From NCBI RefSeq assembly GCF_013377085.1, contig NZ_JACAAX010000019.1, forward strand, positions 1-64,000: a DNA stretch of 64,000 nt. Direction: 5' to 3'. A model generated the notes under the pieces. The model made no database searches. It was given only the letters and a program-made list of their open reading frames with translations, and had not been told where the DNA came from. A program made the translations under genes and the position numbers. Of this stretch, positions 12,358-37,491 are shown in pieces. The stretch comes from Rhodoplanes sp. (GTDB lineage: Bacteria; Pseudomonadota; Alphaproteobacteria; Rhizobiales; Xanthobacteraceae). How positions within the stretch are numbered: position 1 is the stretch's first letter; each line of letters starts with the position of its first letter.

Positions 12358-12420
12358 CTACCAAACGGAGCGACCGATTTCCAACTTGCACCCTGGCCCC
12401 AAAGCCCGGGTCCACTTCAC

Positions 12421-12948: not shown

Positions 12949-13142
12949 CCCTGGCCATCATGCCAGACGACCTTCGGAAGATCGCCGCGGCGCCCTCTGA
13001 AGACAAACAAGTTGCCGTCGTGCGGATTGCGCTTCAAGGTCTCTTGCCCGATCAGAGCTAGGCCCGGGACTCTTTTGCGCATGTCGGTGTGCCCGGTCGC
13101 CAGCCACACTTGAACGCCGCTGCCGATCTGGATAATCGGCGC
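12949..13142 (-). pseudogene. IS66-family TnpB, C-terminally truncated
   Basis: The frame reads VWLATGHTDMRKRVPG, ETLKRNPHDGNLFVFRG and VVWHDGQG, the first half of IS66 TnpB. It then runs into the saccharopine-like fragment at about 12949. It overlaps the end of tnpA, as in intact IS66 elements. Confidence 0.7.
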
Positions 13143-13564: not shown

Positions 13565-13724
13565 GGATCTTGCGCCATCGCTAGCTTCATCACCAAGCCG
13601 CATACCGCCAGATTCCCTTCCCGCTCAGAAGGCGGTCTTGGTCGGGCACATACGGTCCTAAACCCCAGGCCCACTTCAGTCTGGGTGGGGCTCGCCATTC
13701 TCAAGTCTCGCCAATTATGCCGAA
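13565..13724. other. Junction between IS66 remnant and catabolic island
   Basis: No gene seen. It should contain the outer end of the IS66 remnant, but I could not identify a terminal repeat. This is the left boundary of the accessory catabolic island. Confidence 0.4.
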
Positions 13725-14144
13725 TCAAACAGTACCCAGTGCGAGCGCATTGTGCGCGCACGCTGCGCTGCAGGCTGGCCGCCCAGCGCAGATGTCGCAT
13801 TTGATCACATGGCCGACCTCCGCCTCGTACACAATGCCCGCATAGGCGCAGCCAACGGTGCACAACAGGCAACCCACGCAACGGCGGTCGTCCCATTCGA
13901 TCACCCCGGTTTCGCCGTTCTTGGTCAAGGCACCAGACGGACACGTACCCACGCAGCCCGGATCGCTGCATTGGAGACACAGCACGACCTCGAACGCGCC
14001 GCTCACCTCGTCCATAAGAATGCGGATGCGCGACTGCGTGATATCATTGGTCGCTGATTTCTGCTGCGCGCAGGCGACCATGCAGGAAAGGCAGCCCTGA
14101 CAGCGTTCGCGCTGGTAGTGGATTGCGCCGACGCCCTTGTGCAT
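13725..14144 (-). CDS. DmsB/FdhB-type 4Fe-4S ferredoxin, partner of the adjacent molybdoenzyme
   Basis: A 139-aa protein with cysteine groups CQGCLSCMVAC, CLQCSDPGCVGTC, CVGCLLCTVGC and CDICAGRPACSAAC, enough for up to four [4Fe-4S] clusters. No signal peptide. I chose ATG 14144, which follows AGGGGGAG closely; an in-frame ATG at 14162 overlaps the upstream gene. It lies 8 bp after a flavoprotein and a DMSO-reductase-family enzyme on the same strand, so it probably moves electrons between them. Physiological acceptor unknown. Confidence 0.85.
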   Translation of the reverse strand: MHKGVGAIHYQRERCQGCLSCMVACAQQKSATNDITQSRIRILMDEVSGAFEVVLCLQCSDPGCVGTCPSGALTKNGETGVIEWDDRRCVGCLLCTVGCAYAGIVYEAEVGHVIKCDICAGRPACSAACAHNALALGTV

Positions 14145-14152
14145 GACTCCCC

Positions 14153-15412: not shown

Positions 15413-15479
15413 ATAGAGACTCCCATCGCGCTCTTGACACAACGACGCGCGTTGCTGTGCGACGCAATAGTTTCCCTCG

Positions 15480-17947: not shown

Positions 17948-19327
17948 TCACGGCGAGACCTCTTCCAGCACCCTGCCCTTGGTCTCGACCGCGAATACCG
18001 CAACGATCACGCCCGCCGCCGCGGCGACGAGGCCGAAGGCCAGGAACACGTTCTCCAACCCCCCGCCGATCATCATGCCGATTGCGGTCGGGCCAATCAT
18101 GGAGGCGATATTTCGCCAAGCGCCGCCGGCACCGACGCCGATCGCCCGCGCCCTCGTCGGATAGAGCTCGGGCGTATAGAGATAAATGCCGATCGACAGC
18201 ACCGACGAGCAGAAGAAGGCGATGCACACCACGACGAGAACGCGTTCGGCGCTGCCGACACCGAAGATCCAGAGCGAGAGAAGCGAGGCGGCCACTCCAA
18301 AGAACGCCAGCGCGAACCACGGGCGCCGGCCGACATAATCGATGGTCAGCGCGCAGGTGAGCGTCCCGAACAAGCCGGCGACCTGGGTGATCAATCCGTA
18401 CTGCAGCGACTGTGCAAGTGGCAGGTTGAAGACGGTGCGGTACATGGTCGGCACCCAGACGATCAGGCCGAAGGTGAAGAGAAAGGCGGCGAACCACATC
18501 GTCCACACGACGAGTGTGCGACGCAGGTAGTGCGGCCCGAAGAGGTCCGACCACGACGCCGGCTTCTCGTGCGTGGATACGACCGCCTGCACAGGCGGCA
18601 GCGGTTTTCTGGTCGACCTTTCAGTCGCCCGCTCGATACGTGCGAGCGCCGCCTCGGCTTCGGTGTCACGTCCCCGCACCGCCAGCCACCTCGGCGACTC
18701 CGGAATCAGTCGCTGCATGAAGACGGCCAGGATCGCCGGCAGGGCCCCGATGATGAACATGTACTGCCAGCCGAAGGTCGGAACCACCCAGCTGCCGAGG
18801 AAGCCGGCACACACCAGGCCGATCGGGAAGATCAACTCGTACAAGAGCACGAAGCGACCACGGCCCTTGGCCCGGGTGATTTCGCTGATGTAGACGGCGG
18901 CGATCGGAACCTCACCGCCCAGGCCGATCCCCTGCAAGGCGCGGAACGCGACCAATGACTGGTAGTCCCAGGCGAACGCACAGGCGAGACTCATGACCGA
19001 GAGCACGAGCAACGACCAGACCATCGCGGGCACGCGGCCGTAGCGCTGCGCGACCCACCCGAAGAACAGCGCGCCGATAAGCTGGCCGACATAGCCGACG
19101 GAGATCATGAAGCCGACCTGCGTGGGTGTCAGCTTCCACAGCGGAACGAGCGCCGGCAGGACGAAGGCGATCGCGAGCCCGTCGAACGCATCGAAGAACG
19201 TCGCGACGCCGATGACCACCCGCGCCTTGATGTGCCAAGTCGAGATCGGCATCCGCTCGATTCGAGCGACGACATCGTCGACCTTCGAACAACAGGAGCC
19301 GGAAGATTTCAGACTGGTGCTGATCAT
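17948..19327 (-). CDS. MFS transporter, sugar/aromatic-acid symporter type
   Basis: A 459-aa inner-membrane protein with about 12 predicted helices and the MFS loop motifs (GWVAQRYGRVPAM, and DYVGRRPW in the second half; PESPRWL after helix 6). It fits the metabolite:H+ symporter group that imports aromatic or heterocyclic carboxylates and sugars. ATG 19327 has GAGGGAATT in front; the longer ORF lacks this. Its neighbours are the two molybdoenzyme systems of the island, so it probably imports their substrate. Substrate not predictable. Confidence 0.88.
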   Translation of the reverse strand: MISTSLKSSGSCCSKVDDVVARIERMPISTWHIKARVVIGVATFFDAFDGLAIAFVLPALVPLWKLTPTQVGFMISVGYVGQLIGALFFGWVAQRYGRVPAMVWSLLVLSVMSLACAFAWDYQSLVAFRALQGIGLGGEVPIAAVYISEITRAKGRGRFVLLYELIFPIGLVCAGFLGSWVVPTFGWQYMFIIGALPAILAVFMQRLIPESPRWLAVRGRDTEAEAALARIERATERSTRKPLPPVQAVVSTHEKPASWSDLFGPHYLRRTLVVWTMWFAAFLFTFGLIVWVPTMYRTVFNLPLAQSLQYGLITQVAGLFGTLTCALTIDYVGRRPWFALAFFGVAASLLSLWIFGVGSAERVLVVVCIAFFCSSVLSIGIYLYTPELYPTRARAIGVGAGGAWRNIASMIGPTAIGMMIGGGLENVFLAFGLVAAAAGVIVAVFAVETKGRVLEEVSP

Positions 19328-19590
19328 AATTCCCTCACGTAGGCTATCGAGTCGATCACGACAGTGACGCGGCGCCGAAGAGCGCGGACCGCAATCGCAA
19401 ACGTTTTCGGGGGTATTCACGTTTCTGATTAGCGGAGTGTTCGACCCACAGGCACGCGGGTGTCGGTGCATTCGTAAGAGCTTTTTCCGTTCGCAGGCCG
19501 TTCAACCATCTGCCTGCGCCGGGCCAATCGATCCCGATCGGTCGGACCGCCGCTGGTGGGTCTCCTTCGCAAGGACGAACGAATCGGCGC

Positions 19591-20892
19591 CTATCGACTG
19601 TCGGAGGTTCCGACGCCCCAGCGCGCCATCATCTTCACCTTCTCCAGGCACGCGGTGATGCCGACGCTGTGCATCACCTGGCCGGTCCCGCAGCGGTCGC
19701 CATCCACCAGCGCGTTGCGAAGCCGGAACTCGAGCGGATCCATGCCGACGCGCCTGGCGGCGATGTCCATCATCGTTTCGATTGCCACGCTCGGCTGGGA
19801 CATGCCGAATCCACGGAACGGGGCGCTCTGCGAGGTGTTGGTGTAGACGGTCCAGACCTCGGCAGACTGGTTCGGAATCCGGTAGGTTCCGGACCCGATC
19901 ATGGCCGCCTTCCCGCTCGAGATGCACGCCGTCGATCCGTACGCTCCCGCGTTGGAAATGTGCGTGCGATGGATGGCCGTGAGCGTGCCGTCGCGCTTGA
20001 GGCCGAGCTTGAAGGTCATGTAGTGGGGCGCCTTGGTCGATCCGTACACCATGTTGTCGTGCATCGACATCGCCCAGCGCACTGGCCGCCTGACCTTCAG
20101 CGCGAGCGCGGCGACGTTCGGCTCGATCGTCATCTGGCCTTTCTGACCGAAGCCGCCGCCGACCGCCGGAACGATGACACGCACCTTGTTCAGGGGCAGC
20201 CCGAGCGCCTGGGCGAGAGTGCCGCTGACCATGAACGGCACCTGCGTGTTGCTCCACACCGTCACGCCGCCGACGGCCTCCGGACGGACCAGGCAGGCAT
20301 GCGGCTCGATCGGCACCGATCTCTGCCCCGACGTCGAAATCGTCTCCTCCACGATGATGTCGGCCTCGGCGAACCCCTTGTCGACGTCGCCATGGATCTG
20401 CTGCAGGCAATCGTGGCCGAACACCATGATCCTGTTGCCCTTGCAGAGCTTCTCCTGGCCCTCCTCGTGGATGATCGGGGCATCCGGCTTCATGGCCTCG
20501 CGGGCGTCGAACACGGCCGGCAGCGGCTCGTATTTCACGTCGATCAGCTCGACCGCCGCATGTGCGATCTCTTCGGTATCGGCCGCCACCAGTGCGACGA
20601 TCTCCCCGCGGTAGCGGACCTTCGTGTCGGCGAAGATCGGCTGCTCCTTGACGATCTGGCCGGTGACGTTGTCGGCGAGGTCGCGGGCGGTGGCGACCCC
20701 ACGCACGCCCGGAAGGCGTTCGGCTCGGCTGGTGTCGATGGAGACGATTCTGGCGTGATGCTCGGAGCTGAGGAGCCCCCTTGCGTGGAGCATGCCGGGC
20801 AGATGCATGTCGCCGACATAGAGGACTTGCCCGGTCACCTGCTGCTCGGCGTCCGTGCGAGGGCGCCGTTTTCCGACTTCAGCGAAATTCAT
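19591..20892 (-). CDS. Molybdenum hydroxylase large subunit, N-terminal half (NdhL-like)
   Basis: A 433-aa protein equal to the N-terminal half of a xanthine-dehydrogenase-family large subunit. The N-terminal a/b hammerhead domain (residues 10-130) has VTGQVLYVGDMHLPG. The first Mo-pterin domain carries VPAVGGGFGQKG and the conserved Arg loop APFRGFGMSQPSVAIE. It ends about where the second Mo domain should begin; that domain is encoded separately at 21413-23347. The split is the same as in nicotinate dehydrogenase of Eubacterium barkeri (NdhL/NdhM). The ATG is preceded by GGGAG and overlaps the 2Fe-2S gene by 14 bp. Likely role: hydroxylation of an N-heterocycle or aromatic acid. Confidence 0.85.
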   Translation of the reverse strand: MNFAEVGKRRPRTDAEQQVTGQVLYVGDMHLPGMLHARGLLSSEHHARIVSIDTSRAERLPGVRGVATARDLADNVTGQIVKEQPIFADTKVRYRGEIVALVAADTEEIAHAAVELIDVKYEPLPAVFDAREAMKPDAPIIHEEGQEKLCKGNRIMVFGHDCLQQIHGDVDKGFAEADIIVEETISTSGQRSVPIEPHACLVRPEAVGGVTVWSNTQVPFMVSGTLAQALGLPLNKVRVIVPAVGGGFGQKGQMTIEPNVAALALKVRRPVRWAMSMHDNMVYGSTKAPHYMTFKLGLKRDGTLTAIHRTHISNAGAYGSTACISSGKAAMIGSGTYRIPNQSAEVWTVYTNTSQSAPFRGFGMSQPSVAIETMMDIAARRVGMDPLEFRLRNALVDGDRCGTGQVMHSVGITACLEKVKMMARWGVGTSDSR

Positions 20893-21385
20893 GGCTGCGC
20901 TCCCACCCTTGCTTTGCTTGTTCCCGCAGATCTTTGGCGGCGGCGAGCACCGCCTGCACCGGTTTGACGTAACCGGTGCATCGGCACATGTTGCCGGCGA
21001 GGCCTTCCTTGACGTCCTCCTCGGTCGGGTCGGTGTTCCTGTCGAGCAGCGCCTTCGCCGACAGGATCATGCCGGGTGTGCAGAATCCGCACTGGCTCGC
21101 GGCGAGATCTTTGAAATGCACCTGCAATGGATGAAGCGTCGTGGCGCCCAGGCTCTCGATGGTCTCGATGTGCGCGCCGTCGACGCTGATGGCGAGGACG
21201 AGACAGGCGTTGACCGTGATCCCGTCCATGATCACCGTGCAAGCGCCGCACTCGCCCTGTTCGCACGAGCGCTTCGCGCTCGTCATCTGCAGCTCTTCGC
21301 GAAGCATGTCCAGGAGCGTCAGATTTGGCTCAACGGACATCGTTACATCTTGCGAATTCAACCGGAACCGAATCTCTTGCTTCAT
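20879..21385 (-). CDS. Molybdenum hydroxylase 2x[2Fe-2S] small subunit (NdhS/CoxS-like)
   Basis: A 168-aa protein. The plant-type [2Fe-2S] site is CEQGECGACTVIMDG with a distal Cys (NAC), and the second cluster is CGFCTPG with CRCTGY. This is full length for the small subunit of the xanthine dehydrogenase family. ATG 21385 has AAGGTG upstream; a GTG three codons earlier is an alternative. It lies between the FAD/Mo fusion gene and the large-subunit half, with an overlap and a short gap, so the three subunits are cotranscribed. Confidence 0.93.
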   Translation of the reverse strand: MKQEIRFRLNSQDVTMSVEPNLTLLDMLREELQMTSAKRSCEQGECGACTVIMDGITVNACLVLAISVDGAHIETIESLGATTLHPLQVHFKDLAASQCGFCTPGMILSAKALLDRNTDPTEEDVKEGLAGNMCRCTGYVKPVQAVLAAAKDLREQAKQGWERSHEFR

Positions 21386-21412
21386 GGTGATCACCTTGGT
21401 GGCGTCGGGCGT

Positions 21413-23347
21413 TCACGCCGTCGCGTCCGCGTCTCGCAGGCGTTTGTCCTGCAGCTTGCGCAACACCTTTTCGGGCGATGCCGGCAGGTCGAAGATTCGA
21501 ATTCCGACCGCATCGTCGATCGCGTTGAGAATGGCGGGGGTCGGCGTGATCGCCGTGATCTCTCCGCACGCCTTGGCCCCGAACGGTCCGTTCTGCTCGG
21601 GCACCTCGACGAAGGCGGCATGGATGTTCGGCATGTCGAGCGAGGTTGCGATCGGATAGTTGGACAGGTCTTTCGGCTCGAATGCCGGATTGAAGCCGGA
21701 CGGCTCATCCACCGGCGACAGGCCGGGATAGGCGTCCTCGCGCAATGCCCAGCCGACCGCCTGCATCGCCCCACCCTCGACCTGCCCCTCCACCAGAATC
21801 GGGCTGATCGCCTTGCCGCAGTCGACCACCGAATAGAGATCCCTGACGGACACGACGCCGGTTTCGGTATCGACGTCGACGTCGACTGCGGAGGCGATGT
21901 AGTAGAACGAGGCGATGGTATCACCCTGAAGTCCGCGGCCCGGCGGCGAACTCTTCGGAAAGTAGGTGGCCGAACTGTTGGGAAGCTGCCGGAACGCGAA
22001 GTGCGAGAGGGCCGCCGCCTCCGGAATGGAGATGAAGGTGTTGGTGCCCGGTTCGGTGTCGACGATCACCCCCGGCTCGAGGGCGAGGCGTTCGACCGGA
22101 ACATTGAGCTTCTTCGAAGCGGAATCGAGCAGGACGGTCCTGATCTGCGCCGCGGCCGCCAGGGCGGCATTGCCACCGGCGAAGGTCTGGCGCGAGGAAA
22201 CGGTGCCCCAGTCGTAAGGGCTGGTCCCGGTGTCGGCCTGATGGACCGTGACCTGATCCACGGTGACCCCGAGCGCCTCGGCGACGATGGTGGCGATGAC
22301 GGTCGTCGACCCCTGACCGATGTCGCAGCCGCCCGCCTGCACGACGACGCTGCCATCCTCGCGCATCTGCATGTTGATCGAATAGGGATTGGGCACCCCC
22401 CCGGGAACGGTGCAGGAGTAGAATGTCCCGGCGACGCCGCGGCCTCTTTTGACGACGGGCCGGGCCATGGCCGGCCGCTCGCCACCGGCGAGCGCCAGCG
22501 CATCCTCCAGGCTGCGTTGCGCGAGCACCGGTGCGATCTGGGCGCGGTACCAGGCGCTGGCACGCAGGTCGGTGATCGGGGAGATCGCCTCGGCGACGAG
22601 CGGGAGAGCCCTTCGAACTTCGTCGCCGGTCGCGGGTCGCCCGCGCAAGGCGTTTTCGAAGGCCGTCGCCCGGACCACGGTCGGGGCCACCGAACCGAGC
22701 GCCAGGCAGACGCGCTCGAACGATCGCCCGTCTGCGCTCAGGGTCACCGAGGCCGCCGCATTGGCGATCGAGATCGTCATCGCCCTCCGGTTGCCTAGTT
22801 TGTGGAATGCGGATCCGCTGCGACCGCCGTTGAGCGGGATGCCGACGGCGACGATCAATTCGTTCTTCGCGAGGCAGTTCTTCTTCGGCCCGATCAGGAG
22901 ATCGCGGACCGCCAGGGTCTTTCGCCCCTGATTGCTGGCGACCTCGATGGTCGCATCGAGCGCGACCAGCGCCGCAATGAGGTCGCCGGCAGGCGACGCC
23001 GTTCCGAGATTGCCACCGATCGTTCCGAGATTGCGGACCTGCGGTCCGGCCGCTTCACGTGCCGCCTGTGCGAGGACGTTCGCATGGTCCCGGATCAGGT
23101 CCGACGCGAGCAGGTCCGTGAACGTGGTGCGGGAGCCGATGCGGAGCGCATCGCCGTCTCGGCGGATGAACTTCAGCTCGTCGATCCTCTTGAGGTCGAC
23201 GACGCAGCGGGGATTGATCTGTCGGGCATTCAGCGAGACGATGAGATCGGTGCCGCCGGCGATGACGACCGCATCCGGACCTCGCTCGTCGAGGATCGCG
23301 AGGGCCTCGGGAAGGGTCGTTGGGCGAACATAATCGAATGGCTTCAT
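21413..23347 (-). CDS. Fused FAD subunit plus C-terminal Mo domain of a molybdenum hydroxylase
   Basis: A 644-aa fusion. Residues 1 to about 290 are the CoxM/NdhF-type FAD domain (VIAGGTDLIVSLN, LGTIGGNLGTASPAGD). From about residue 315 the protein is the second Mo-pterin domain of the large subunit (NdhM equivalent), with QAGGCDIGQGSTTV and the active-site region PFGAKACGEITAITPTPAIL, where the GE supplies the catalytic Glu. ATG 23347 follows GGAGGG at good spacing; the longer ORF is not supported. The order fusion-small-large is unlike common coxMSL layouts. I know of no characterised enzyme with this FAD-NdhM fusion, so I regard the architecture as unusual. All catalytic elements seem present across the three genes. 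Confidence 0.85.
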   Translation of the reverse strand: MKPFDYVRPTTLPEALAILDERGPDAVVIAGGTDLIVSLNARQINPRCVVDLKRIDELKFIRRDGDALRIGSRTTFTDLLASDLIRDHANVLAQAAREAAGPQVRNLGTIGGNLGTASPAGDLIAALVALDATIEVASNQGRKTLAVRDLLIGPKKNCLAKNELIVAVGIPLNGGRSGSAFHKLGNRRAMTISIANAAASVTLSADGRSFERVCLALGSVAPTVVRATAFENALRGRPATGDEVRRALPLVAEAISPITDLRASAWYRAQIAPVLAQRSLEDALALAGGERPAMARPVVKRGRGVAGTFYSCTVPGGVPNPYSINMQMREDGSVVVQAGGCDIGQGSTTVIATIVAEALGVTVDQVTVHQADTGTSPYDWGTVSSRQTFAGGNAALAAAAQIRTVLLDSASKKLNVPVERLALEPGVIVDTEPGTNTFISIPEAAALSHFAFRQLPNSSATYFPKSSPPGRGLQGDTIASFYYIASAVDVDVDTETGVVSVRDLYSVVDCGKAISPILVEGQVEGGAMQAVGWALREDAYPGLSPVDEPSGFNPAFEPKDLSNYPIATSLDMPNIHAAFVEVPEQNGPFGAKACGEITAITPTPAILNAIDDAVGIRIFDLPASPEKVLRKLQDKRLRDADATA

Positions 23348-23670
23348 CTCAGTCCCTCCGGATCGGCCTTGACTGCCGCATTCCGCCTTGGGGGTGATGT
23401 GTCCGCACAACGACCGTGCCAAGCCGTCACCGCGGAGACCGCCGTTTCCGATGTCAGCTCAATTGTGTTAGCAGCAGAGTCGGAAGCGCGGACACTGATC
23501 CGGTCCCATCGCCTCGCGATATTTCCTGTTGTCCAGATCGCGGCCCGAGCTTGCATCATTGCCCACCCGTTCCGGGCGTGTCAGCGTTGGTTCGATTTCG
23601 GCCTTGGTTTCATCTCGACGCGAATTCACGCCTGTTCACGTGAATAAGGACTTGTCGGGGAGGCATTTAT

Positions 23671-23712
23671 TGAACATGCTCATGTTTGAACGCGTTCATG
23701 CTTATGTCAAGC
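23671..23712 (-). promoter_or_regulatory. Promoter/operator copy A, upstream of the hydroxylase operon and tetR
   Basis: A 42-bp element nearly repeated at 30489-30530. Read on the minus strand it has TTGACA (23710-23705), a 17-bp spacer and AAACAT (23687-23682), a plausible sigma-70 promoter for the hydroxylase operon. The spacer carries the perfect palindrome TGAACGCGTTCA (23687-23698), and an imperfect TGAACATG/CATGTTTGA inverted pair follows. It lies between the hydroxylase operon and the divergent tetR gene, so TetR-type repression is the simplest model. The leader to 23347 is about 330 bp and otherwise empty. Confidence 0.7.
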
Positions 23713-23749
23713 AGAGAGATGTGGGTCCTGGATCGGGAATGTTACGGAT

Positions 23750-24505
23750 GTGGACGAAATGAGCGCGAAGCGCGGTACCGACCATACGACGCCGACCGCG
23801 GCGCCTGCACCAGGGCGACGCGAGCGCAACAAGATCGAGAAATTGCGTCGCATCAAAGAAGCGGCAATGGAGCTCTTCACGCGGAAGGGCTTCGACGACA
23901 CCACCACCAGGGAGATTGCGGCCGCGGCGGACGTGGGCTTGGGAACCGTCTTCATTTACGCTGCGAACAAGCGCGATCTTCTCTTCTTGATCGCGAACGA
24001 CGGGTTGGAAGGCGTGGAGGAGCGGGCGCACGCCTGCCTCGATCCGACGGCCCCACTGCTCGAGAACCTGCTCAACATCTTCCGGCACCATTACGAGTTT
24101 TTCTGTCGCCAGCCGGCTCTGTCGCGGCTCGTTCTGCGCGAGATGGCGTTCTACGAGGCCGGCGCACAGGCTCGCCCCTTCCAGGAGACCCGGGAAGCGC
24201 TCATCAGACTGCTCGGGAAAGCCGTGCAGGCGGCGATCGACCGGAACACGGTATCGCCCGGAGACACCCCGCAGTTCGTCGGCTGGACTCTGTTCTGTAT
24301 CTATCAGGTGGAACTTCGTCGGTGGATCTCGCAGGATGACCTCTGCCTGCGCGAAGGAATGGATCACTTGCAGCGGGCCCTGAAAGTCGTGATTCGCGGA
24401 CTCGATCCGACCGCCGAGGCCCTGTCTGTGGGCCGTCCGCCCGCTGCCGCGACCGACAAGACCCCGCCGCGCAAGGTGCCGCGGGCGGTACGCAGCACCA
24501 GATAG
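23750..24505 (+). CDS. TetR-family transcriptional regulator
   Basis: A 251-aa regulator with a TetR HTH (residues 30-75: RIKEAAMELFTRKGFDDTTT, REIAAAADVGLGTVFIYAAN) and a ligand-binding C-terminal domain. Start is GTG 23750 or ATG 23759. It is divergent from the hydroxylase operon and near operator copy A, which is also present before the creatinase-like operon. It is therefore the best candidate for the regulator of both. Ligand unknown. Confidence 0.88.
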   Translation: MDEMSAKRGTDHTTPTAAPAPGRRERNKIEKLRRIKEAAMELFTRKGFDDTTTREIAAAADVGLGTVFIYAANKRDLLFLIANDGLEGVEERAHACLDPTAPLLENLLNIFRHHYEFFCRQPALSRLVLREMAFYEAGAQARPFQETREALIRLLGKAVQAAIDRNTVSPGDTPQFVGWTLFCIYQVELRRWISQDDLCLREGMDHLQRALKVVIRGLDPTAEALSVGRPPAAATDKTPPRKVPRAVRSTR

Positions 24506-24507
24506 GG

Positions 24508-24525
24508 GCAGGCCGCACGGCCTGC
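24508..24525. terminator. Stem-loop between convergent tetR and iclR
   Basis: GCAGGCCG and CGGCCTGC form an 8-bp stem just after the tetR stop. No T-run follows on either strand, so intrinsic termination is uncertain. Confidence 0.4.
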
Positions 24526-24591
24526 GCGGCACAAGGATTTCAAGCGCCGCATATCGGCGTCTCCGGGCGAGATACGACGAGCCGGGCCGCC

Positions 24592-25311
24592 CTATTCAAC
24601 TCCTGCCCGACCGAGGCTGGCGATCAGAAATTGCTTTGCTTCGAGCAGACTCCCTGAAATTGGGTTCTTCAATCTCGACACACGTGCGGCCGGGACCGGA
24701 ACCGAGATGGTCGCATAGCCGCCGCGGGGCAGCGGAAGAGCGATCCCGACGGCGCAAACGCCGATCGTGTTCTCCTCCCGATCCAGCGCGAAGCCGGTTC
24801 TGCGAACAGCCGTCAGTTCATCGAGCAGCGCCGCCAAGGGCTTCACCGTCCGTCGGTCACGCCGCTCGAATGCCGACCCTATGCAACTGTTCACCGCGGC
24901 ATCGGGGAGTTCGGCCAGATAAGCCTTGCCGTTCGCTGTGCAGCAGAGTGGGAGACTCTCTCCTATCGAGGAAACGACTTGTAGACGTTGATTGCCCGGG
25001 ATCTGATCGACGACGAGCAGACGACGACCGCATACCATGGCGACCACGACAGTCTCCTGAAGCTCCTCCGAAAGCGCGACCAGGACCTCTCTCGCATTCG
25101 CCGGAATGGCAGCGGGCATCGAGGCTGCCAGGTGCAGCCATCCCGGCCCGAGCCTCACACCCGTTCCGGACCCCACGGGCACGACCAACCGCTCTCTTTC
25201 GAGCGCGGCGACGAGTCGTTGCACCGTGGACCGCGCGAGCGACGTGTGCGACGCGATCGCGCCGAGACTCAGGCCCTGTGGCGCGTCTTGGAGCGCATCG
25301 AGAACGGTCAT
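24592..25311 (-). CDS. IclR-family transcriptional regulator
   Basis: A 239-aa IclR protein. The N-terminal winged HTH (LSLGAIASHTSLARSTVQRL) is followed by the effector domain with GESLPLCCTANGKAYLA and LDREENTIGVCAVGIALPL. The N-terminus is slightly short: the frame stays open upstream to give EIDIKIIRRA before this Met, but no standard start codon is present there. It lies downstream of the aldehyde dehydrogenase gene on the same strand, 210 bp away, and probably regulates the catabolic genes together with the TetR protein. Ligand unknown. Confidence 0.85.
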   Translation of the reverse strand: MTVLDALQDAPQGLSLGAIASHTSLARSTVQRLVAALERERLVVPVGSGTGVRLGPGWLHLAASMPAAIPANAREVLVALSEELQETVVVAMVCGRRLLVVDQIPGNQRLQVVSSIGESLPLCCTANGKAYLAELPDAAVNSCIGSAFERRDRRTVKPLAALLDELTAVRRTGFALDREENTIGVCAVGIALPLPRGGYATISVPVPAARVSRLKNPISGSLLEAKQFLIASLGRAGVE

Positions 25312-25521
25312 GGCTCGGCGAATGATCTTGATGTCGATCTCCGCACGCGACGACCGGCGCGAAACGGCTGCTGCGCAGATGCACGTTCAGCACGCCAACA
25401 TCCAGACCTACGCGGAAAGAGCCGCCTCGGATCGACGAGCCCGTTTGGCCGATCTGGTGGGGCCGGACGTCCCGCCCCACCAGGCCGACGATCATGCGTC
25501 AGTCTCCCGGCACCGTGCCGG

Positions 25522-27153
25522 TCAGCCGCGCGTCATGGTGCCGTCCCAGGTCGAAACCTTGGCGGGCACGGCCTTGCCGGTAAACCACGTGGTCGTGACG
25601 TTCTTGGTCTCGGTGTAGAAGATGAAGCCGTCACGGCCCATGCAGTGCAAGTCGCCGAAGAAGGACTGCTTGTGGCCGGTGAAGCCGAAGACGCCGAGCG
25701 GCACGGGAATGCCGACGTTGACGCCGACCATGCCACCGTCGGTCCGGTAGGCGAACTCGCGGGCGTAGTGCCCGCTTTCGGTGTAGATCACCGAGCCATT
25801 GGCGAAGCGGTTCGCGTTCATGACCTTCAGCCCCTCTTCGAAGCTGTCGACCCGCTTGATGCACAGGACCGGCCCGAAGATCTCTTCACGCCCGCAGGTC
25901 ATATCCTCGGTCACGTGGTCGAAAATGGTCGGACCGATGAAGAAGCCCTTGTCGCAGCCCTCGGCAACCTTCGGGTTGCGACCATCCAGCACGAGCTTCG
26001 CTCCTTCCTTGATGGCGGTGTCGATCCATCCGAGCACGAAGCTCTTGTGGCCTTCGTTCACCACCGGGCCGAGATCCGAGGCCTTGTCGTAAGCGGCGCC
26101 GAGCTTCATGCCCTTCGCGAGCGAAACAATCATTTCGACCAGGGCGTCGGCAATCTTGTTCTCCACCACCACCACCGGCAGTGCCATGCAGCGCTCACCG
26201 GCGCAGCCGCAGAACGAGTTGATGATGCCCTGAGCGGTGCGCTCGAGGACGGCATCCGACAGCACCAACGCGTGGTTCTTGGCCTCGGTCAGCGCCTGCA
26301 CCCGTTTTCCGTTCGACGCCGCCGTCGCATAGACGTGCAGGCCGACCTGGGTCGAGCCGACGAAGCTGACTCCCTTGATGGCCGGATGCCGCAGGAAGAT
26401 CTCGGCCTCGTTACGGCTCGTGGTGACGATGTTGAGCACGCCGTCCGGCAGGCCTGCCTCCTTCCACAACTCGGTGATGCGCAGCGCGCATTGCGGCGCG
26501 TAGCTCGCCGCCTTCAGGACCATGCAGTTCCCGGTCACGACGCAGATCGGAACCATCCACCCCTGCGGGATCATGGCCGGGAAGTTCCACGGCGCGATGC
26601 CGGCGAAGACGCCCATCGGCTCGCGAAACTGGACGGTGTCGTAGCCGGACGAGACATTGAAGAGCGACTCGCCCTTCATCATCTGGGGCGCCCCACAGGC
26701 GAACTCGACAACCTCGATGACCTTGAGGATATCGCCCTTCGCCTCGTCCCACTTCTTGCCGTTCTCCTGGGCGCACAGGCGCGTCAATTCGTCCAGATGC
26801 TCGTCGAGCAGCGCCTTCATCCTGAACATGACCTGGGCCCGCACCGTCACTGGCGTGTCGCGCCAGGCCGGAAACGCCTTGACGGCGGCGTCGATCGCCT
26901 CCTCGACCTCCTCCGCCGTGCACTGCGGCGCCCGCGCGATCACGGCCCCGGTCGAAGGATCGTGGCAGGGCATCGTCCTGGTCGACTTCGATGCCTTCCA
27001 CCGGCCACCCACACCGTAGTGCAGCGTCCTCGGGCGCTCGCCGCTGATCGAATCGAGGGGAGCGTCGTCGGCGATGTGGAAATAGCGTGCCTGCAGGTCC
27101 GGATCGGAGCCACGCACTTTGGGCGCACCAGGCTGTATCGTCGTCGCGGTCAC
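25522..27153 (-). CDS. CoA-acylating aldehyde dehydrogenase, methylmalonate-semialdehyde dehydrogenase type
   Basis: A 543-aa ALDH. The nucleophile is in CGCAGERCMALPVVV. The usual general-base Glu is replaced as in methylmalonate-semialdehyde dehydrogenases (ALTEAKNHALVLSDA), which use CoA rather than water to release an acyl-CoA. Other ALDH motifs: APWNFPAMIP and EEIFGPVL. The N-terminus is about 40 aa longer than MmsA/IolA. GTG 27153 is preceded by AAAGGAG. In the island it would turn a semialdehyde from ring cleavage into a CoA thioester. The substrate is inferred from family only; valine/propionate metabolism is less likely given the neighbours. Confidence 0.88.
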   Translation of the reverse strand: MTATTIQPGAPKVRGSDPDLQARYFHIADDAPLDSISGERPRTLHYGVGGRWKASKSTRTMPCHDPSTGAVIARAPQCTAEEVEEAIDAAVKAFPAWRDTPVTVRAQVMFRMKALLDEHLDELTRLCAQENGKKWDEAKGDILKVIEVVEFACGAPQMMKGESLFNVSSGYDTVQFREPMGVFAGIAPWNFPAMIPQGWMVPICVVTGNCMVLKAASYAPQCALRITELWKEAGLPDGVLNIVTTSRNEAEIFLRHPAIKGVSFVGSTQVGLHVYATAASNGKRVQALTEAKNHALVLSDAVLERTAQGIINSFCGCAGERCMALPVVVVENKIADALVEMIVSLAKGMKLGAAYDKASDLGPVVNEGHKSFVLGWIDTAIKEGAKLVLDGRNPKVAEGCDKGFFIGPTIFDHVTEDMTCGREEIFGPVLCIKRVDSFEEGLKVMNANRFANGSVIYTESGHYAREFAYRTDGGMVGVNVGIPVPLGVFGFTGHKQSFFGDLHCMGRDGFIFYTETKNVTTTWFTGKAVPAKVSTWDGTMTRG

Positions 27154-27401
27154 GGAATTCTCCTTTGCGCATGTGTCGGAGCCGCCAGGAGCGGCATGCT
27201 GCGAAATCAGGCCGAACCAAGCATCACGAAACTCGGATCATGCCCGGCGTTCATGCCGCCGGGCCTGCGGGGTCCGAGAGGTAGGTCGGCCGGGGGCACG
27301 CGTTTCGCGGTACCCGACAGTGCCTCACCGGCGGGCCTCGCCCCCCTGCCCGACTGCGTTCGCTTCGTATCGCCGGAACGGCTCTCCGCTCCGGAGTCTG
27401 T

Positions 27402-27434
27402 CGGGCGAACGCTCCGTCGCGGAGCATTCGCCCG
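27402..27434. terminator. Strong stem-loop between the SDR and aldehyde dehydrogenase genes
   Basis: Arms CGGGCGAA/TTCGCCCG and GCTCCG/CGGAGC separated by one mismatch form a 14-bp stem with a TCG loop, 17 bp after the SDR stop on the minus strand. No T-run. It may attenuate transcription or stabilise the 3' end. The rest of the 297-bp gap (27154-27450) holds no recognisable gene. Confidence 0.5.
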
Positions 27435-27450
27435 CAGACCTCCGGCGCCG

Positions 27451-28257
27451 TCAGCGGAATGAAATGTGCTGTCCGCAGTGCGCGATGATCGTCTGGCCGG
27501 TGATGGCCGAGGACTCGTCGGACGCCAGGAAGACGCAGACGCTTCCCAGCTCCGATTCCTCGGCCGGGCGCAGGAGCGAGTAGTTCTTCATTTCCCGCCT
27601 GATCGTCTCGTCGATGGAGCTGCCCGACGCCTTCGCGCGACCGTCCATCACCTTGAGGAAGCGCTCGCCCTTCACGGCCGCTGCGCTGAGGCAATTGACG
27701 CGAATGTTGTACTCGCCGACCTCCTGGGCCAACGTCTCCGTCAGACCGATCACGCCCATCTTGGCGCAGCAGTATCCGGCCCGCATGGGATAGCCGGACC
27801 GCCCGTCGCCGGTACGACCGCCTTCTGCGCCGATGTTGATGATCACGCCGCTCTTGGCCGCGATCATGTGCTTCAGCGACTCGCGGGCGCACAGCATGCT
27901 TCCGGTCAGATCGACGGCCAGGATCTCGTTCCAGCCGTCGAGCGTCAGGTCGACCACGTTCGCGGTCGGACCGCCGATGCCGCTGTTGTTCACCAGGATG
28001 TCGATGCGGCCGAAGGTCTTCACGGCCTCGGCCACCATGTCGATGATCGCCTGCTCCTTGGTGACGTCGCACTCGATGGCCTTGGCGACGCCGCCCATGG
28101 CGGTGAGCTCCTGCACGGTCGCCGCCAGATTGGCCTTGTTGCGTGCCGCGAGCACCACCTTCGCGCCCTCGCTCACGTAGGACTTGGCGATCGCCTTGCC
28201 GATGCCGCTGCCGCCGCCCGTGATGATCGCGACCTTGTCCTTCAGTCTCTGTCCCAT
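27451..28257 (-). CDS. Short-chain dehydrogenase/reductase
   Basis: A 268-aa SDR. Cofactor motif GGGSGIGKAIA, NNSG near residue 90, and active site YCCAK near residue 165. The Ser usually about 12-13 residues before the Tyr is not obvious (the strand reads INIGAEGGRTGDG). ATG 28257 follows GGAGACAGGAC. Third in the operon after the creatinase-like and isochorismatase-fold genes. It probably oxidises a hydroxy intermediate to the aldehyde or ketone used next; substrate unknown. Confidence 0.85.
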   Translation of the reverse strand: MGQRLKDKVAIITGGGSGIGKAIAKSYVSEGAKVVLAARNKANLAATVQELTAMGGVAKAIECDVTKEQAIIDMVAEAVKTFGRIDILVNNSGIGGPTANVVDLTLDGWNEILAVDLTGSMLCARESLKHMIAAKSGVIINIGAEGGRTGDGRSGYPMRAGYCCAKMGVIGLTETLAQEVGEYNIRVNCLSAAAVKGERFLKVMDGRAKASGSSIDETIRREMKNYSLLRPAEESELGSVCVFLASDESSAITGQTIIAHCGQHISFR

Positions 28258-28342
28258 GTCCTGTCTCCGTTGATGAGTTGATCCACGCGCTCGGGCGGAG
28301 ACCTCCGCCACGGCGGCGCGTCCGATATGACGCCGTCCGACG

Positions 28343-28954
28343 TCAGCGAGCGTCGAGGCGCGAGATGACGTCCGCCGTCGGGCAGACCATGGCGATGTTG
28401 TTGATCATCCGCAGGGCCGCGTCGCAGCTCGCCTTGTCGGCGCCCGAGGACGCGTCCGAGGGAACCACCAGGTTGTAGTAGAGGTCCGACGCCTGCCAGA
28501 CCGAGGCGAGCACCACCATGTCGGTCGCCACGCCGGCCAGCACGAGGGTCCGCACGCCCAGATCCTTCAGAACCTGGTCGAGATCGTTGTTGGCGAACAT
28601 GCTGAAGGGGAAGTTGCCGATGACGGGCTCGCCGCGGGCGGGCGCCACCTCCTTGATGACCTCGATGTCCTTCGAGTTCGGCATGTTGACGCCGCTCGTC
28701 ACGGTGGACCAGAAGCGCCCGAGAACCGGGGCGCTGCCGGCCTTGGTCGGATCCGTGACCGCATTCACGTAGATGACGGGCAGCTTGCGCTCGCGGAACG
28801 CCCCGAGAAGCGCCTGCTGCTTGGGAAGGATCCCCGATTCGTGGGTCGCCTTGGCGTGGCCGACATGCGCGACCCGTCCTTCCGGGTCGCAGATCGCATG
28901 TTGCATGTGCAGCAGTATCAGGGCGGGCTTCCCGACGATCTTCCAGTCGCTCAT
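28343..28954 (-). CDS. Isochorismatase-fold (cysteine hydrolase family) protein lacking the catalytic triad
   Basis: A 203-aa protein with the cysteine-hydrolase fold: strand ALILLHMQHAICDPEGR, then FSMFANNDLDQVLKDLGVR and LVLAGVATDMVVLAS. By eye, the triad of active members is missing: the Asp of the DMQ motif is His, the Lys before the SAF-like segment is not Lys (VIGNFPFSMF), and the Cys after GVAT is absent (DMVV). Some family members without this Cys are known from genomes. So amidohydrolase activity should not be assumed. ATG 28954 has GAGGAG upstream. It follows the creatinase-like gene by 74 bp. Confidence 0.8.
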   Translation of the reverse strand: MSDWKIVGKPALILLHMQHAICDPEGRVAHVGHAKATHESGILPKQQALLGAFRERKLPVIYVNAVTDPTKAGSAPVLGRFWSTVTSGVNMPNSKDIEVIKEVAPARGEPVIGNFPFSMFANNDLDQVLKDLGVRTLVLAGVATDMVVLASVWQASDLYYNLVVPSDASSGADKASCDAALRMINNIAMVCPTADVISRLDAR

Positions 28955-29028
28955 CACTGTCTCCTCATTGGCAGCGCGTCCCGGGGGTGGGCTGTTCGCC
29001 TTCGCCCTCCGGGGCGCCGATCGCCGTT

Positions 29029-30219
29029 TCACAGAACGACGATCTGTCTCGGGAACTGGTGGAGTCGGATGGGGGCACCCGTCGTCGTGAGGTAATTGTC
29101 GCAACACGGGCAGAAGGCGCCGGGCCGCACCATCACCGGATGGACGGCGATGTTGGTGTTCGGTTGGATCTTCCACAGCTCGTCCGGTCGCAGCATCGGA
29201 CGATCCACCAGGGACTGGCCCTGTCCGTGTCCGAACGAGCGCACGGGCGGGAAGTATCCGTTCTTGATGCAGTAGTCCTTGAACCTGTTCCACAGATCCG
29301 CCGGATCGGCTCCCGGGACGAGCGCGGCGACCGTCATGTCCTGCGCCTCGAGCCCGGCTGCGAGCGTGTCCTTGAGAACCTGAGGAGGCTCCTTGCCGAC
29401 CGTGTAGGCACGCATCACTTCCGTGTAGTAGCCGCCGGGTCCATTGACCTCGATCAGCACCGTGACCTGGTCGCCTTCCCGGATCACCCGGTTCTGGAAT
29501 CGGGGAACGTCGAACGGCACGATGGTGCCGAGCGGACCGGATCCGACCTGGACGAGACCTCGCTCGCTGCCGTGCTTGCTGAGAAAGCAGTGCGCCTCGG
29601 CGTAGACGTCGATGTCGCGCTTGCCCGGTTGGATGATCGTCTTGAGCTCTTCGAGACAAGCGTCCTGCAGCGAGGCCGCACATTTGACGAGCTCGATCTC
29701 CTCGGCGCTCTTGGGAACGCGGATCTCGTCGAGCCAGTCTGTCGCGTCCACGAACCTGGCACCGGGCAGGTTCTGGACGACGTGCTCGAAGAACGTGACC
29801 GGGATCGTGGAACGCTCGACCCATCCGATGGTCGGGCGCGGCCGCTCCTTCAGCACGCCCACCGCCAGCTCCGCGTCGTAGGTGCTGGTGTAGGGGAGCG
29901 TCGAGAAATAGACGTTGCCCAGCTTCTTCTTGATCCCGCGCGCCGCGTAGGGAGGCGGCCAATTGTCGTTCGGCGGCTCTGATCCACAGACGATCGTCGT
30001 CATCTCGTCGTCGACCGGGAAGATGACGGTCATCGGGAACTGATGCCGCGCCGTCAGGTCGGTGAACCATCGAATGGTGCCGCCCATGTATTCTTCGGAA
30101 TTTTGCATCACGAGGTAATCGATCTTCTTCTCGATCATCTTCTCGCGGACGGCCTTCCAGCGGCGCTCCAGCTCGGCCGTCGAAACACTTCGGGTCAATC
30201 TCTGTTTGGGGTCTTCCAT
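29029..30219 (-). CDS. Creatinase/M24-family (pita-bread fold) protein
   Basis: A 396-aa protein with the two-domain layout of creatinase and aminopeptidase P: an N-terminal domain to about residue 165, then the pita-bread domain. The metal-ligand positions are poorly kept: the Asp..Asp pair reads LIEVNGPGGYYTEVMRAY (both Glu), the late Glu region is NIAVHPVMVR, and the last ligand region is CCDNYLTT. The catalytic-type GHGQGQSL His is present. This favours a non-metal creatinase-like C-N hydrolase over a peptidase. ATG 30219 follows GGAG. First gene of the operon whose promoter is copy B of the repeated operator. Confidence 0.8.
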   Translation of the reverse strand: MEDPKQRLTRSVSTAELERRWKAVREKMIEKKIDYLVMQNSEEYMGGTIRWFTDLTARHQFPMTVIFPVDDEMTTIVCGSEPPNDNWPPPYAARGIKKKLGNVYFSTLPYTSTYDAELAVGVLKERPRPTIGWVERSTIPVTFFEHVVQNLPGARFVDATDWLDEIRVPKSAEEIELVKCAASLQDACLEELKTIIQPGKRDIDVYAEAHCFLSKHGSERGLVQVGSGPLGTIVPFDVPRFQNRVIREGDQVTVLIEVNGPGGYYTEVMRAYTVGKEPPQVLKDTLAAGLEAQDMTVAALVPGADPADLWNRFKDYCIKNGYFPPVRSFGHGQGQSLVDRPMLRPDELWKIQPNTNIAVHPVMVRPGAFCPCCDNYLTTTGAPIRLHQFPRQIVVL

Positions 30220-30488
30220 AGCCGCTAGCTCCTGATCGAGGTGGCGTCCTGCCCGCATGTCGTCATCGAGGTGGTCAGTCATCGTGATCGACGACTCGCA
30301 GGCCGCGCCTCGGCACGAGGCGCCGTCGTCGCAGCAACCCCCGCCCGCAAGACGATGCCCTGCGCACGGTCCGCGTGCCGTTCCGGCGTTCCGGCGCGCG
30401 CGGAAGTGTCGAGCCCGGGAACTCGCGTCGATCCTTCTGACAAGACCGCATCGGCTGTTCGTACTCTGCAGCCCAGGCGGGACCTATA

Positions 30489-30530
30489 TGAACATGATCA
30501 TAATTGATCGCGTTCATTGTTGTGTCAAGC
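30489..30530 (-). promoter_or_regulatory. Promoter/operator copy B, upstream of the creatinase-like operon
   Basis: A 42-bp element with about 33 of 42 bases identical to the one at 23671-23712, same orientation. On the minus strand: TTGACA (30528-30523), 17-bp spacer, AATTAT (30505-30500). The operator palindrome is here TGATCGCGTTCA with an extra ATGATCAT palindrome beside it. It lies about 270 bp upstream of the creatinase-like start. An IS256 fragment begins only about 30 bp beyond, so the promoter has narrowly escaped truncation. Confidence 0.7.
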
Positions 30531-30559
30531 TGCCAAACATCGAACCGCTGTAAGGAGCT

Positions 30560-30846
30560 CTACGGATGGCCCGTCTCGACGCCGTGAGGGCGTTCTCGGC
30601 CATCCGGTGCGGGTCGAGGAGGCCGGAGAAGTGGCTTCCCTTGCGCAGCTTGGGGACACGCAGCTCGACCGCGCCGGCCCGGGTCTGCCGGTCGCGGTCT
30701 CGGTACCGGTTGCGCTGGGCGAGCCGCTCGGCGCTCTTCTCGCCATAGGCCGCGCGGGTCCGGCTCTCGATCTCCAGCTCCATCAGCCACTGGGCGGCGA
30801 AGCCGATCATCTCCCGCAGCACCTCGGCGTCGGGGGCCTTCTCCAC
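30560..30846 (-). pseudogene. IS256-family transposase, N-terminal fragment
   Basis: Reads EKAPDAEVLREMIGFAAQWL, AAYGEKSAERLAQRNRYRDR and VPKLRKGSHFSGLLDPHRMA, the start of an IS256 (Mutator-type) transposase. It breaks off after about 85 residues (ENALTA). It marks the right boundary of the catabolic island. Confidence 0.8.
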
Positions 30847-30857
30847 GAGAGCGTGCA

Positions 30858-31288
30858 GGTCCTTTCTATCGTCGATCTTCGGTGGTTCCTCGGTTGCGTT
30901 GCGTGTCGCAACCCAACCCCACCGGCGGACCGTCGATGACCCCTTTCGACGCCGCTCGCTACGGCGCTATGGGGGGCGCGCTCGCGAGCGGCGCCACAAC
31001 CGCCCTGCTAACACCAACACCGGGGACATGACCGGCCCCGATCTTGAACAACCCGAGCCGGATGGGGTTGAACTCCGCTGCGGCCAATTCGTGAGGCCTC
31101 GGAGTCGAGGCACCCACGGCGAGGACCAAGGCGATGGGCGGCAGAGTGGAGACCACGAACCTACTTGGCGAGCGCGCTCACCAACTGGTGCGATCGGAGG
31201 CGAGCTGGGTCTTGTCCAGCTCGATGAGGTTCTCGGCGATGATGAGAGGAGCTGCGGCGCACGGGTAAGCCTCCGAGCCGGTTCCCCT
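30858..31288. other. Gap with prophage-like debris, no confident gene
   Basis: About 430 bp between the IS256 fragment and the terminase pseudogene. Minus-strand frames give short stretches such as IIAENLIELDKTQLAS, but none can be assigned to a family. Probably decayed phage DNA. Confidence 0.4.
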
Positions 31289-32225: not shown

Positions 32226-32870
32226 TCAGGTGGCCGTCAAGTTCCGAGGCTTTTCCTTTGTCGGTTTTGCGGCCTTCGCCGAGCTGCTCTTGAAGCGGAA
32301 GCTGTCGTTTCCGGTTTCGAGGATGTGGCAGTGGTGGGTGAGGCGGTCGAGCAGCGCGGTGGTCATCTTGGCGTCGCCGAAGACCGTGGCCCATTCGCTG
32401 AAGCCGAGATTGGTGGTGATGACGACGCTGGTCCGCTCATAGAGCTTGCTGAGCAGGTGGAAGAGCAACGCGCCGCCTGAAGCACTGAACGGCAGATATC
32501 CGAGTTTGTCGAGGATGACGAGATCGGAGTGGACGAGCCGGCCGGCGATCTGTCCGGCCTTTCCTCGAGTCTTTTCCAGTTCGAGAGCATTGACGAGTTC
32601 GATGGTGGAGAAGAAGCGGACCCGCTTGTGGTGTTGCTCGACAGCCTGGACGCCGAGCGCCGTGGCGATGTGCGTCTTTCCCGTCCCGGGACCTCCGACC
32701 AGGACGACGTTGTGAGCGTCTTGCAGGAACTCGCAGCGATGGAGTTGACGAACCAGAGCCTCGTCGACCTTGCTGCTGGCAAAGTCGAAGCCGCTGAGGT
32801 CCCGATAGGCCGGAAAGCGGGCGGCCTTCAGCTGATAGGCGGTCGATCGGGCCCGCTTTCTGGCGATGAT
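32226..32870 (-). pseudogene. IS21-family IstB ATPase, N-terminally truncated
   Basis: The frame reads [20 protein letters not shown], then the Walker A motif [28 protein letters not shown] (Walker B) and [19 protein letters not shown], to a stop at 32226. No start codon remains, because an IS630-type transposase gene begins at about 32866. Terminal repeats of the IS21 type (ctgacccc.ggctttccac / ctgaccc.ggcttgat) are visible at about 32175-32212. Confidence 0.8.
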
Positions 32871-33867
32871 GCGTCGGCAGACGAACAGTGCCGTTCATCG
32901 GCGCATGAACGTGCTGCTGCTGTTGGATGACGGGTGGTCGGTCGGCCGGATCTGCGAGGCGTTGTTCATCGATGAAGGCACGGTGCGGGAGCATCGCGCT
33001 CTGTACGAGACGCAAGGCCGGGTCGGGGTGGAGCGGCTGGCCTATCAGGGCGCGAGCGGCCCGTTGCGCCGTGATCAGATCGCCGCCCTGGAAGCGTTCG
33101 TCGACCGAGAAGTGCCGCAGACGGCGCGCGAGGTGTGCGCCTTCGTGGCGCGCCGGTTCGGTGTCCATTACGGTCCGAATGCCCTGTCGAAGCTCCTGAA
33201 GCGGCTGGGGTTCGTGTTCAAGAAGCCGAAGAGCGTGCCGGCCAAGGCGGACGCGGCGGTGCAGCGGCGCTTCGTCGCGGAGACGCTGATGGACGCGGCG
33301 GGGCCTGCGGCACCGCTCTATTTCGTCGATGCGACGCACCCCTCCTACACGGGGCGCCCGGCGCACGGCTGGATCCGGCGGGGCCGCACCGTCGAGCTGA
33401 AGTCCAACCACGGCCGCAGCCGGATCAACATCAATGGCGCGCTCCTCTGGCCGGACCGCACCCTGGTCCATCGCCAGGAGGAGCTGATCACCAGCGCCGC
33501 GATGATCCGCCTCTACGACGACCTGCAGGCGCTCCATCCGCAGGCGAAGCGGATCTCGGTCGTCATCGACAATGCCCGCTACAACCGGTCCCGCGAGCTG
33601 CGCACCTATCTGGAGAAACCGGGCTGTCGCATCGTGCCGGTCTATCTGCCGAGCTACGCCCCGAATCTCAACCTGATCGAGCGGTTCTGGCATTTCATGA
33701 AGCGGAAGGTTCTGTTCAACAGGGCCTATGCGAAGTTCGCCCTGTTCGAGCAAGCCTTCCACGACTTCTTCCAACGGCTCGACCACCACGCCGCCGAGCT
33801 CCGATCCATCCTCACCGACCGATTCCACTACATCGGCTCGGCCGAAAACGGAATTTCCGCCGCGTAG
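32866..33867 (+). CDS. IS630-family transposase
   Basis: A 333-aa DDE transposase. N-terminal HTH ([20 protein letters not shown]), a second winkle ([20 protein letters not shown]), then the DDE residues: D in [13 protein letters not shown] in [13 protein letters not shown] and E in [15 protein letters not shown]. The first residues overlap the broken istB and the N-terminus looks slightly short, so activity is uncertain. A TA-rich sequence (ttatatat) after the stop fits IS630 TA targeting. Confidence 0.85.
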
Positions 33868-37079: not shown

Positions 37080-37491
37080 ATGGCCACGCTCGCCGACAGC
37101 CCAGCAGGCGGCTGGCGCAGCCGCGCGTCATGATCATGCCGGCGCTGAAAATCAAGCCGCCGATGACGGCGCCCGACAGGCTGCCGCGCTGGGCGAGCTG
37201 CCGCGCCTCGGAGACATCCGGCCGGCCGAGCAGGATGAAGGCTTGCGTCCACACCACCGCGGTGGCGAAGGCCATCAGCCAGATCGCGACCTTCTGGCCG
37301 ACATGGCCGTGAAAGAACTCGATCGACGCGGCGCGCAGGCAGAAGCGGCTCCTTTGCGCCGCGAACCCGAAGGCCGCCCCGACGGCGACGCCGCCGAGCG
37401 CCAGCACGGGGCCATCGCCCAAGGTTTCGATGATCGTGATCAGATCCACGCGTGCCACGCCTCTGCGGCCCTCGGGGGCCGAGCCGGACAA
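37080..37491 (-). pseudogene. YeeE/YedE-family sulfur transporter, C-terminally truncated
   Basis: About 135 residues of a YeeE/YedE-type membrane protein: helices around VLALGGVAVGAAFGFAAQ and GAVIGGLIFSAGMIMTRGCA, with the conserved Cys motifs RSRFCLRAA and TRGCASRLL. After SRLLG the frame turns into low-quality Arg/Ser-rich sequence and the second half is missing. The family takes up thiosulfate or sulfide-level sulfur. Next to the ttr operon this fits handling of the thiosulfate made from tetrathionate. Confidence 0.65.

Follow-up and report, generated by a model that had tools for sequence, protein, structure and literature searches.

A double-dyad promoter element shared by two catabolic operons of a Rhodoplanes island, and its predicted recognition by the adjacent TetR-family regulator

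The 64,000-nucleotide stretch of Rhodoplanes sp. contig NZ_JACAAX010000019.1 analysed here, referred to at its full length as the window, carries a 42-bp element at two places. Site A (23671-23712) lies between tetR, encoding a TetR-family regulator, and a predicted minus-strand operon for a molybdenum hydroxylase, a major facilitator superfamily (MFS) transporter and redox proteins (operon A); site B (30489-30530) precedes a second predicted minus-strand operon, encoding a creatinase-like protein, an amidohydrolase, a short-chain dehydrogenase (SDR) and an aldehyde dehydrogenase (ALDH) (operon B). This gene layout is as given in a preliminary description of the DNA. The element is very probably an operator-promoter for the TetR protein encoded at 23759-24505, which would govern both operons. 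Each site comprises two 12-bp dyads of the TGAWCNNGWTCA type with their centres 16 bp apart, the first dyad of site A being off by one base; 6 bp beyond the dyads follows TGTCAAG (CTTGACA when read on the minus strand), and a minus-strand promoter layout of TTGACA, 17-bp spacer and -10-like hexamer is superimposed on the dyads at both sites.

23671-23682, minus strand: site A dyad 1, TGAACATGCTCA, 10/12 palindromic; overlaps the -10 and start region
23682-23687, minus strand: site A -10-like hexamer, AAACAT, 3/6
23687-23698, minus strand: site A dyad 2, TGAACGCGTTCA, a perfect palindrome within the promoter spacer
23705-23710, minus strand: site A -35 hexamer, TTGACA
23759-24505, plus strand: TetR-family regulator, 248 aa (TetR_N, 1.4e-12); an in-frame GTG at 23750 is also a possible start
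30489-30500, minus strand: site B dyad 1, TGAACATGATCA, 10/12 palindromic
30500-30505, minus strand: site B -10 hexamer, AATTAT, 4/6
30505-30516, minus strand: site B dyad 2, TGATCGCGTTCA, 10/12 palindromic
30523-30528, minus strand: site B -35 hexamer, TTGACA

Given the position of dyad 2 in the spacer and of dyad 1 over the -10 and start region, a protein bound there would be expected to block the promoter. The preliminary description had correctly placed TTGACA, the 17-bp spacer and a dyad within that spacer at both sites; its -10-like hexamer holds better for site B (4/6) than for site A (3/6), and its single dyad per site has to be replaced by two, the further dyad being that at 23671-23682 and 30489-30500. 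A generic promoter scan of 23000-31000 called site B and one other site, 23584-23555, with 0.7 calls expected, and passed over site A.

Sites A and B share one orientation and agree at 35 of their 42 positions, more than the approximately 33 first reported; five of the seven differences fall in the spacers, with two in the dyads. The next-best match to either 42-mer in the window reaches at most 24/42, and the number of pairs as good as A and B expected there is about 5e-4 (a binomial estimate over all pairs). A genome-wide motif scan had been named beforehand as a check on the element, with many dispersed copies as the outcome that would count against it. Across the host genome (6.48 Mb, 89 contigs), only sites A and B were hit by the 41-mer when up to 3 mismatches were allowed (reversed control, 0), and the tandem dyad gave the same two places at that tolerance; with two copies found genome-wide, the idea of a dispersed repeat is rejected. 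The shorter pattern dyad-N6-TGTCAAG, allowed up to 2 mismatches, occurred exactly at both sites and with 2 mismatches at four other positions (one in the reversed control); as these four hits were all that it yielded, the idea of further regulon members in the host genome was set aside. At the level of sequence, the predicted operator thus stands at both operons with no genome-wide scatter, as in a local regulon.

The protein encoded by tetR has the TetR_N helix-turn-helix and the all-helical body of its family; the predicted structure consists of ten helices (mean predicted local distance difference test score, pLDDT, 89), and its fold neighbours in the PDB are TetR-family proteins. Its best solved match is FadR of Thermus thermophilus (PDB 3ang, 3anp; sequence 3.6e-10, fold TMq 0.55-0.60). 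The identity is 26%, and the acyl-CoA ligand of FadR cannot be assumed for it. Relatives are rare: matches at E <= 1e-20 were found in 4 of 297 genomes of the order, including the window's own, and at 1e-25 only the window's own genome matched among 398 of the phylum.

A profile scan of named genomes for this TetR returned 51 loci, of which the 33 with the stronger matches (L009-L041) were footprinted, leaving aside 18 with partial or weak ones (L042-L059), using a pattern of 27 specified positions derived from sites A and B themselves. Upstream of tetR, the pattern gave the best score of the whole locus in L009, L012 and L013 (27/27 each), L014 (26), L011 (23) and L010 (22), and likewise, at 21/27, in L021 and L040. 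A palindromic promoter site beside the regulator gene is therefore conserved with tetR orthologues in 6 to 8 of the 33 loci (22-27/27 in six, 21/27 in two more), other genera among them. In L024, one dyad is present with an 8-bp rather than 6-bp step to TTGACA. On a tree of 32 TetR proteins (L040 and L041 were excluded for broken or short reading frames), the nine rows labelled motif-bearing, with L021 and L024 as the weak cases among them, cluster: three changes suffice, compared to a mean of 8.1 for shuffled labels, and none of 500 shuffles was as low. Among ten aligned sites, selected partly for their promoter half, TTGACA is present in all ten and A(A/T)NNAT follows 17 bp on in nine. In 12 relatives' genomes, the full pattern with up to 3 mismatches occurs once in four and is absent from eight, the latter including genomes with a weaker site below this limit.

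The presence of TTGACA with 17-bp spacing at both sites could be taken to mean that the element is merely a strong promoter, the likeness between A and B being generic and no operator being common to them. However, promoters have no need of dyads, which recur at fixed spacing in L009, L012, L013 and L014 (26-27/27); moreover, the window contains four exact dyads against 0.20 expected, three of them inside sites A and B. A merely generic resemblance is accordingly regarded as extremely unlikely. The remaining exact dyad of the window, TGATCGTGATCA, stands alone at 37431-37442.

The genes behind the promoter vary by lineage. They encode an MFS transporter and an S15-type hydrolase in L009 (and, by homology, in L013), this set being joined in Rhodoplanes tepidamans by a 196-aa protein, with a matching layout in Rhodoplanes elegans; an ABC transporter, an S15 hydrolase and a cupin in L012; a DHDPS-like protein, S15 hydrolase and TctC in L010; hydantoinase A (HyuA) in L021; and an ABC transporter with hydantoinases A and B (HyuA/HyuB) in L024. 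None of the 51 loci gave a tblastn match at 1e-8 to the IclR-family regulator of the window within the reach of their flanks. With the genes behind the promoter varying and no homologue of IclR in these loci, TetR is the constant partner of the element, and for this reason site B very probably places the creatinase-like/amidohydrolase/SDR/ALDH operon under the same predicted TetR control as the molybdenum-hydroxylase operon. Another regulator binding both sites, either IclR, whose gene is located between the two operons, or one unlinked to them, would be an alternative, but the element adjoins tetR orthologues in loci whose flanks hold no match to the window's IclR, and this possibility is judged very improbable.

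Several observations weigh against control of both operons by TetR. The -10 hexamer of site A is poor; the score of 21 in L021 and L040 is close to background, since elsewhere in the 33 loci the best scores are 16-21, led by L034 (21) and L033 (20); in L018 (score 19, equalled at another place) and L038 (score 20) the dyads lack the promoter half; and the element is absent from 22 of the 33 loci (Rhizobium, Ensifer, Roseomonas and others), in which the TetR homologues are more distant or of another clade, two of these loci, L025 and L035, carrying a lone TGAGC-type dyad. The part of the tree that holds the motif-bearing rows has mixed support. In none of the 12 other genomes did the element occur twice when up to 3 mismatches were allowed, and hence no independent two-operon case was found. 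Footprinting ties site A to TetR, and site B is tied to it through motif identity. The proposal in the preliminary description of one TetR regulon gains support from the footprinting; its wording of direct evidence was too strong for what is a strong inference from sequence.

Related arrangements were seen near other TetR homologues. In L034, a tandem dyad spaced at 16 bp like those of sites A and B (TGAACGCGTTCA, N4, AGATCGCGTTCT; L034:2624) lies approximately 60 bp after, rather than before, the matched tetR stretch. In Azohydromonas (L038:9865-9905), two related dyads with 16-bp spacing lie upstream of tetR with the TTGACA half absent; judging from this locus, the double dyad may predate the promoter arrangement. 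In a Rhodobiaceae metagenome-assembled genome (L032, 1211-3388 and 3728-4360), the gene for a TetR relative (43%) is oriented divergently to one for a homologue (38%) of the second molybdopterin oxidoreductase of the window, and the intergenic region contains a degenerate dyad 6 bp from TGTCAA. In 5 of the 33 loci (L026, L027, L033, L035 and L039), more distant TetR relatives have homologues of the molybdenum-hydroxylase subunits no further than 10 kb away.

The two predicted operons of the window and the IclR gene are composed as follows:

13725-14162, minus strand: operon A, 4Fe-4S ferredoxin-type protein
14153-15553, minus strand: operon A, flavoprotein scoring above the NCBIfam cut-off for subunit epsilon of phenylglyoxylate dehydrogenase
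15480-17708, minus strand: operon A, molybdopterin oxidoreductase of the formate dehydrogenase/DMSO reductase type (below NCBIfam cut-offs), carrying an Fe4S4 domain at the N-terminus
17948-19471, minus strand: operon A, MFS transporter sharing 82% identity with the MFS protein adjoining the orthologous tetR in R. tepidamans and R. elegans
19591-20892, minus strand: operon A, N-terminal half of the molybdopterin subunit, 433 aa (Ald_Xan_dh_C and MoCoBD_1)
20879-21394, minus strand: operon A, 2Fe-2S subunit
21413-23347, minus strand: operon A gene 1, FAD subunit fused to a C-terminal molybdopterin domain; the reading frame opens at 23422, with the likely start at 23347 after GGAGG
24592-25311, minus strand: IclR-family regulator following the ALDH gene after a 210-bp gap; may have its own promoter
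25522-27153, minus strand: operon B, ALDH, above the NCBIfam cut-off for methylmalonate-semialdehyde dehydrogenase
27451-28311, minus strand: operon B, SDR
28343-28999, minus strand: operon B, isochorismatase-fold hydrolase; biuret hydrolase is its best match among solved structures, with RutB lower in the list; start not fixed
29029-30219, minus strand: operon B gene 1, creatinase/prolidase-like M24 protein; the reading frame opens at 30282, with the likely start at 30219 after AGGAG

The molybdenum hydroxylase is split in an unusual manner, its C-terminal molybdopterin domain being carried on the FAD subunit (21413-23347) and the N-terminal half encoded separately (19591-20892). Searches at E <= 1e-100 with this fusion and with the creatinase-like protein each matched 1 of 297 genomes of the order, the window's own. 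In plasmids, the fusion had no match at 1e-60, and the creatinase-like protein matched three records at 33.5-36.2% identity; two of these were inspected, and their surroundings differ from those in the window. The ribosome sites at the starts 23347 and 30219 imply that the leaders of both operons would be approximately 270-330 nt long; that of operon B, reckoned from the predicted promoter to the likely start at 30219, would measure about 274 nt. A search of 14000-36000 with Rfam at gathering scores gave no match, and hence no known RNA element in these long leaders. Comparison of the two leaders by blastn at 1e-3 returned self-matches only, though this search is insensitive and did not list even the 42-bp element, and in an ungapped comparison 33/110 bases agree, the chance level. 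The sequence TTCACGTGAA in leader A was considered as a second shared site and rejected, having one exact copy and, with up to 1 mismatch, two matches against 1.07 expected.

The G+C content of the region from approximately 12 to 38 kb is 63-66%, compared to 65-73% in its flanks. An IS3-type integrase core and IS66-type pieces lie at 11.1-13.6 kb (11141-13603), the homology of a Mutator/IS256-type remnant ends at 30580-30581, abutting site B, and a DDE_3 transposase gene is found at 32866-33867; a region of lower G+C content with transposase genes on both sides would fit an acquired catabolic island. When 12-31 kb was compared with the two named Rhodoplanes loci by DNA similarity at 1e-2, only the MFS gene (81-82%), tetR (71-72%), the operator-promoter and two short pieces of L009 (E 0.008) were recovered. 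The S15 hydrolase of the Rhodoplanes loci has no match in the window's genome at 1e-60, and among six genomes of the genus the creatinase-like gene was found at 1e-30 in the window's alone. This pattern suggests that a core of regulator, operator and transporter stayed while the enzymes were exchanged, and that operon B arrived with the second operator.

The octamer TACGGATG occurs twice on the plus strand of the window, at 23743-23750 and 30561-30568, with the same 32-nt offset from both operators; in L009 and L013, as in the window, it lies at or just before the start of tetR. The tetR-side flank of site B matches its counterpart at 19/39 positions (P 0.008), a likeness spotted after the fact and hence weak. 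Together with the truncated insertion sequence (IS) adjoining site B and the IclR gene following operon B, this recurrence of TACGGATG could indicate that site B is a non-functional relic of an old duplication of the tetR-promoter region and that IclR runs operon B. That site B retains both dyads and TTGACA, has the better -10 (4/6), differs from site A mostly in the spacers, and has a leader-side flank matching at chance makes such a relic improbable. A portable cassette can be proposed tentatively, as a possibility that is rather doubtful, in which TetR and the double-dyad promoter, sometimes with one transporter, stay joined while catabolic genes are swapped between lineages, and the regulon grows by copying of the operator; here, site B would derive from the tetR-proximal segment, TACGGATG at 30561-30568 being a relic of the tetR start and the rest having been cut off by the IS between 30569 and 30580.

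The nearest systems in the literature searched, which included few subscription journals, are AtsR and RolR. AtsR recognizes TGCAA-N2-TTGCA, a palindrome of 12 bp in which two 5-bp half-sites are separated by 2 bp (PMC9210681). The window dyads share this architecture, whereas the AtsR operator has a single dyad and another half-site, and belongs to a multidrug response. RolR, a TetR-type regulator of Corynebacterium glutamicum involved in resorcinol/aromatic catabolism (PMC3086911), is described in PMC9210681 as binding, as paired homodimers, a 29-bp sequence with two small palindromes, TGAAC-N4-GTTCA and TTCAT-N2-ATGAA, the first of these having TGAAC half-sites. RolR thus resembles the present case in being a TetR protein with a two-palindrome operator in a catabolic setting, and its structure (3aqs; PMC3086911) gives a weak sequence match to the window TetR (1.4e-05). 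The window operator is not of the RolR type, however, as both dyads are TGAWC-N2-GWTCA with a 2-bp gap and one half-site type; phylum and genes are also different, and the operator here stands at two operons. QacR functions in drug resistance. Its operator of approximately 28 bp is likewise bound by a pair of TetR-family homodimers (PMC9210681). That operator is one long palindrome, in contrast to the two separate dyads and catabolic genes of the window. Within the literature searched, no paper was found to join TetR with TGAACGCGTTCA, none was found for a NicS/TetR/nicotinic acid operator or a Rhodoplanes molybdenum hydroxylase, and a search for a Rhodoplanes TetR operator gave off-topic papers only.

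From the double dyad and the analogy with RolR and QacR (PMC9210681), we infer that each 12-bp dyad would be bound by one TetR dimer, the two dimers of a site covering the spacer between -10 and -35 and the start region, blocking RNA polymerase and so repressing both promoters. An inducer arising in the catabolic pathway would then release TetR, leading to co-induction of the molybdenum-hydroxylase/MFS/redox operon from site A and the creatinase-like/amidohydrolase/SDR/ALDH operon from site B. As to the substrate, an N-heterocycle or amide converted to a C3 semialdehyde would fit the combination of a methylmalonate-semialdehyde dehydrogenase-type ALDH, an SDR, a biuret-hydrolase-like amidohydrolase and a molybdenum hydroxylase.

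A local TetR regulon such as this would be of an ordinary kind. Its particulars are an operator of which the papers searched gave no description, the presence of that operator in a second copy, and an island bounded by IS elements in which catabolic genes have been exchanged. It supplies a predicted operator for a group of TetR proteins for which the searches made found no characterised member, and it brings together, in one predicted pathway, a molybdenum-hydroxylase operon whose gene layout is unusual and an operon for an amidohydrolase and an aldehyde dehydrogenase. It would also serve as an example of a regulator-promoter pair that is retained as the catabolic genes downstream of the promoter are replaced by others.

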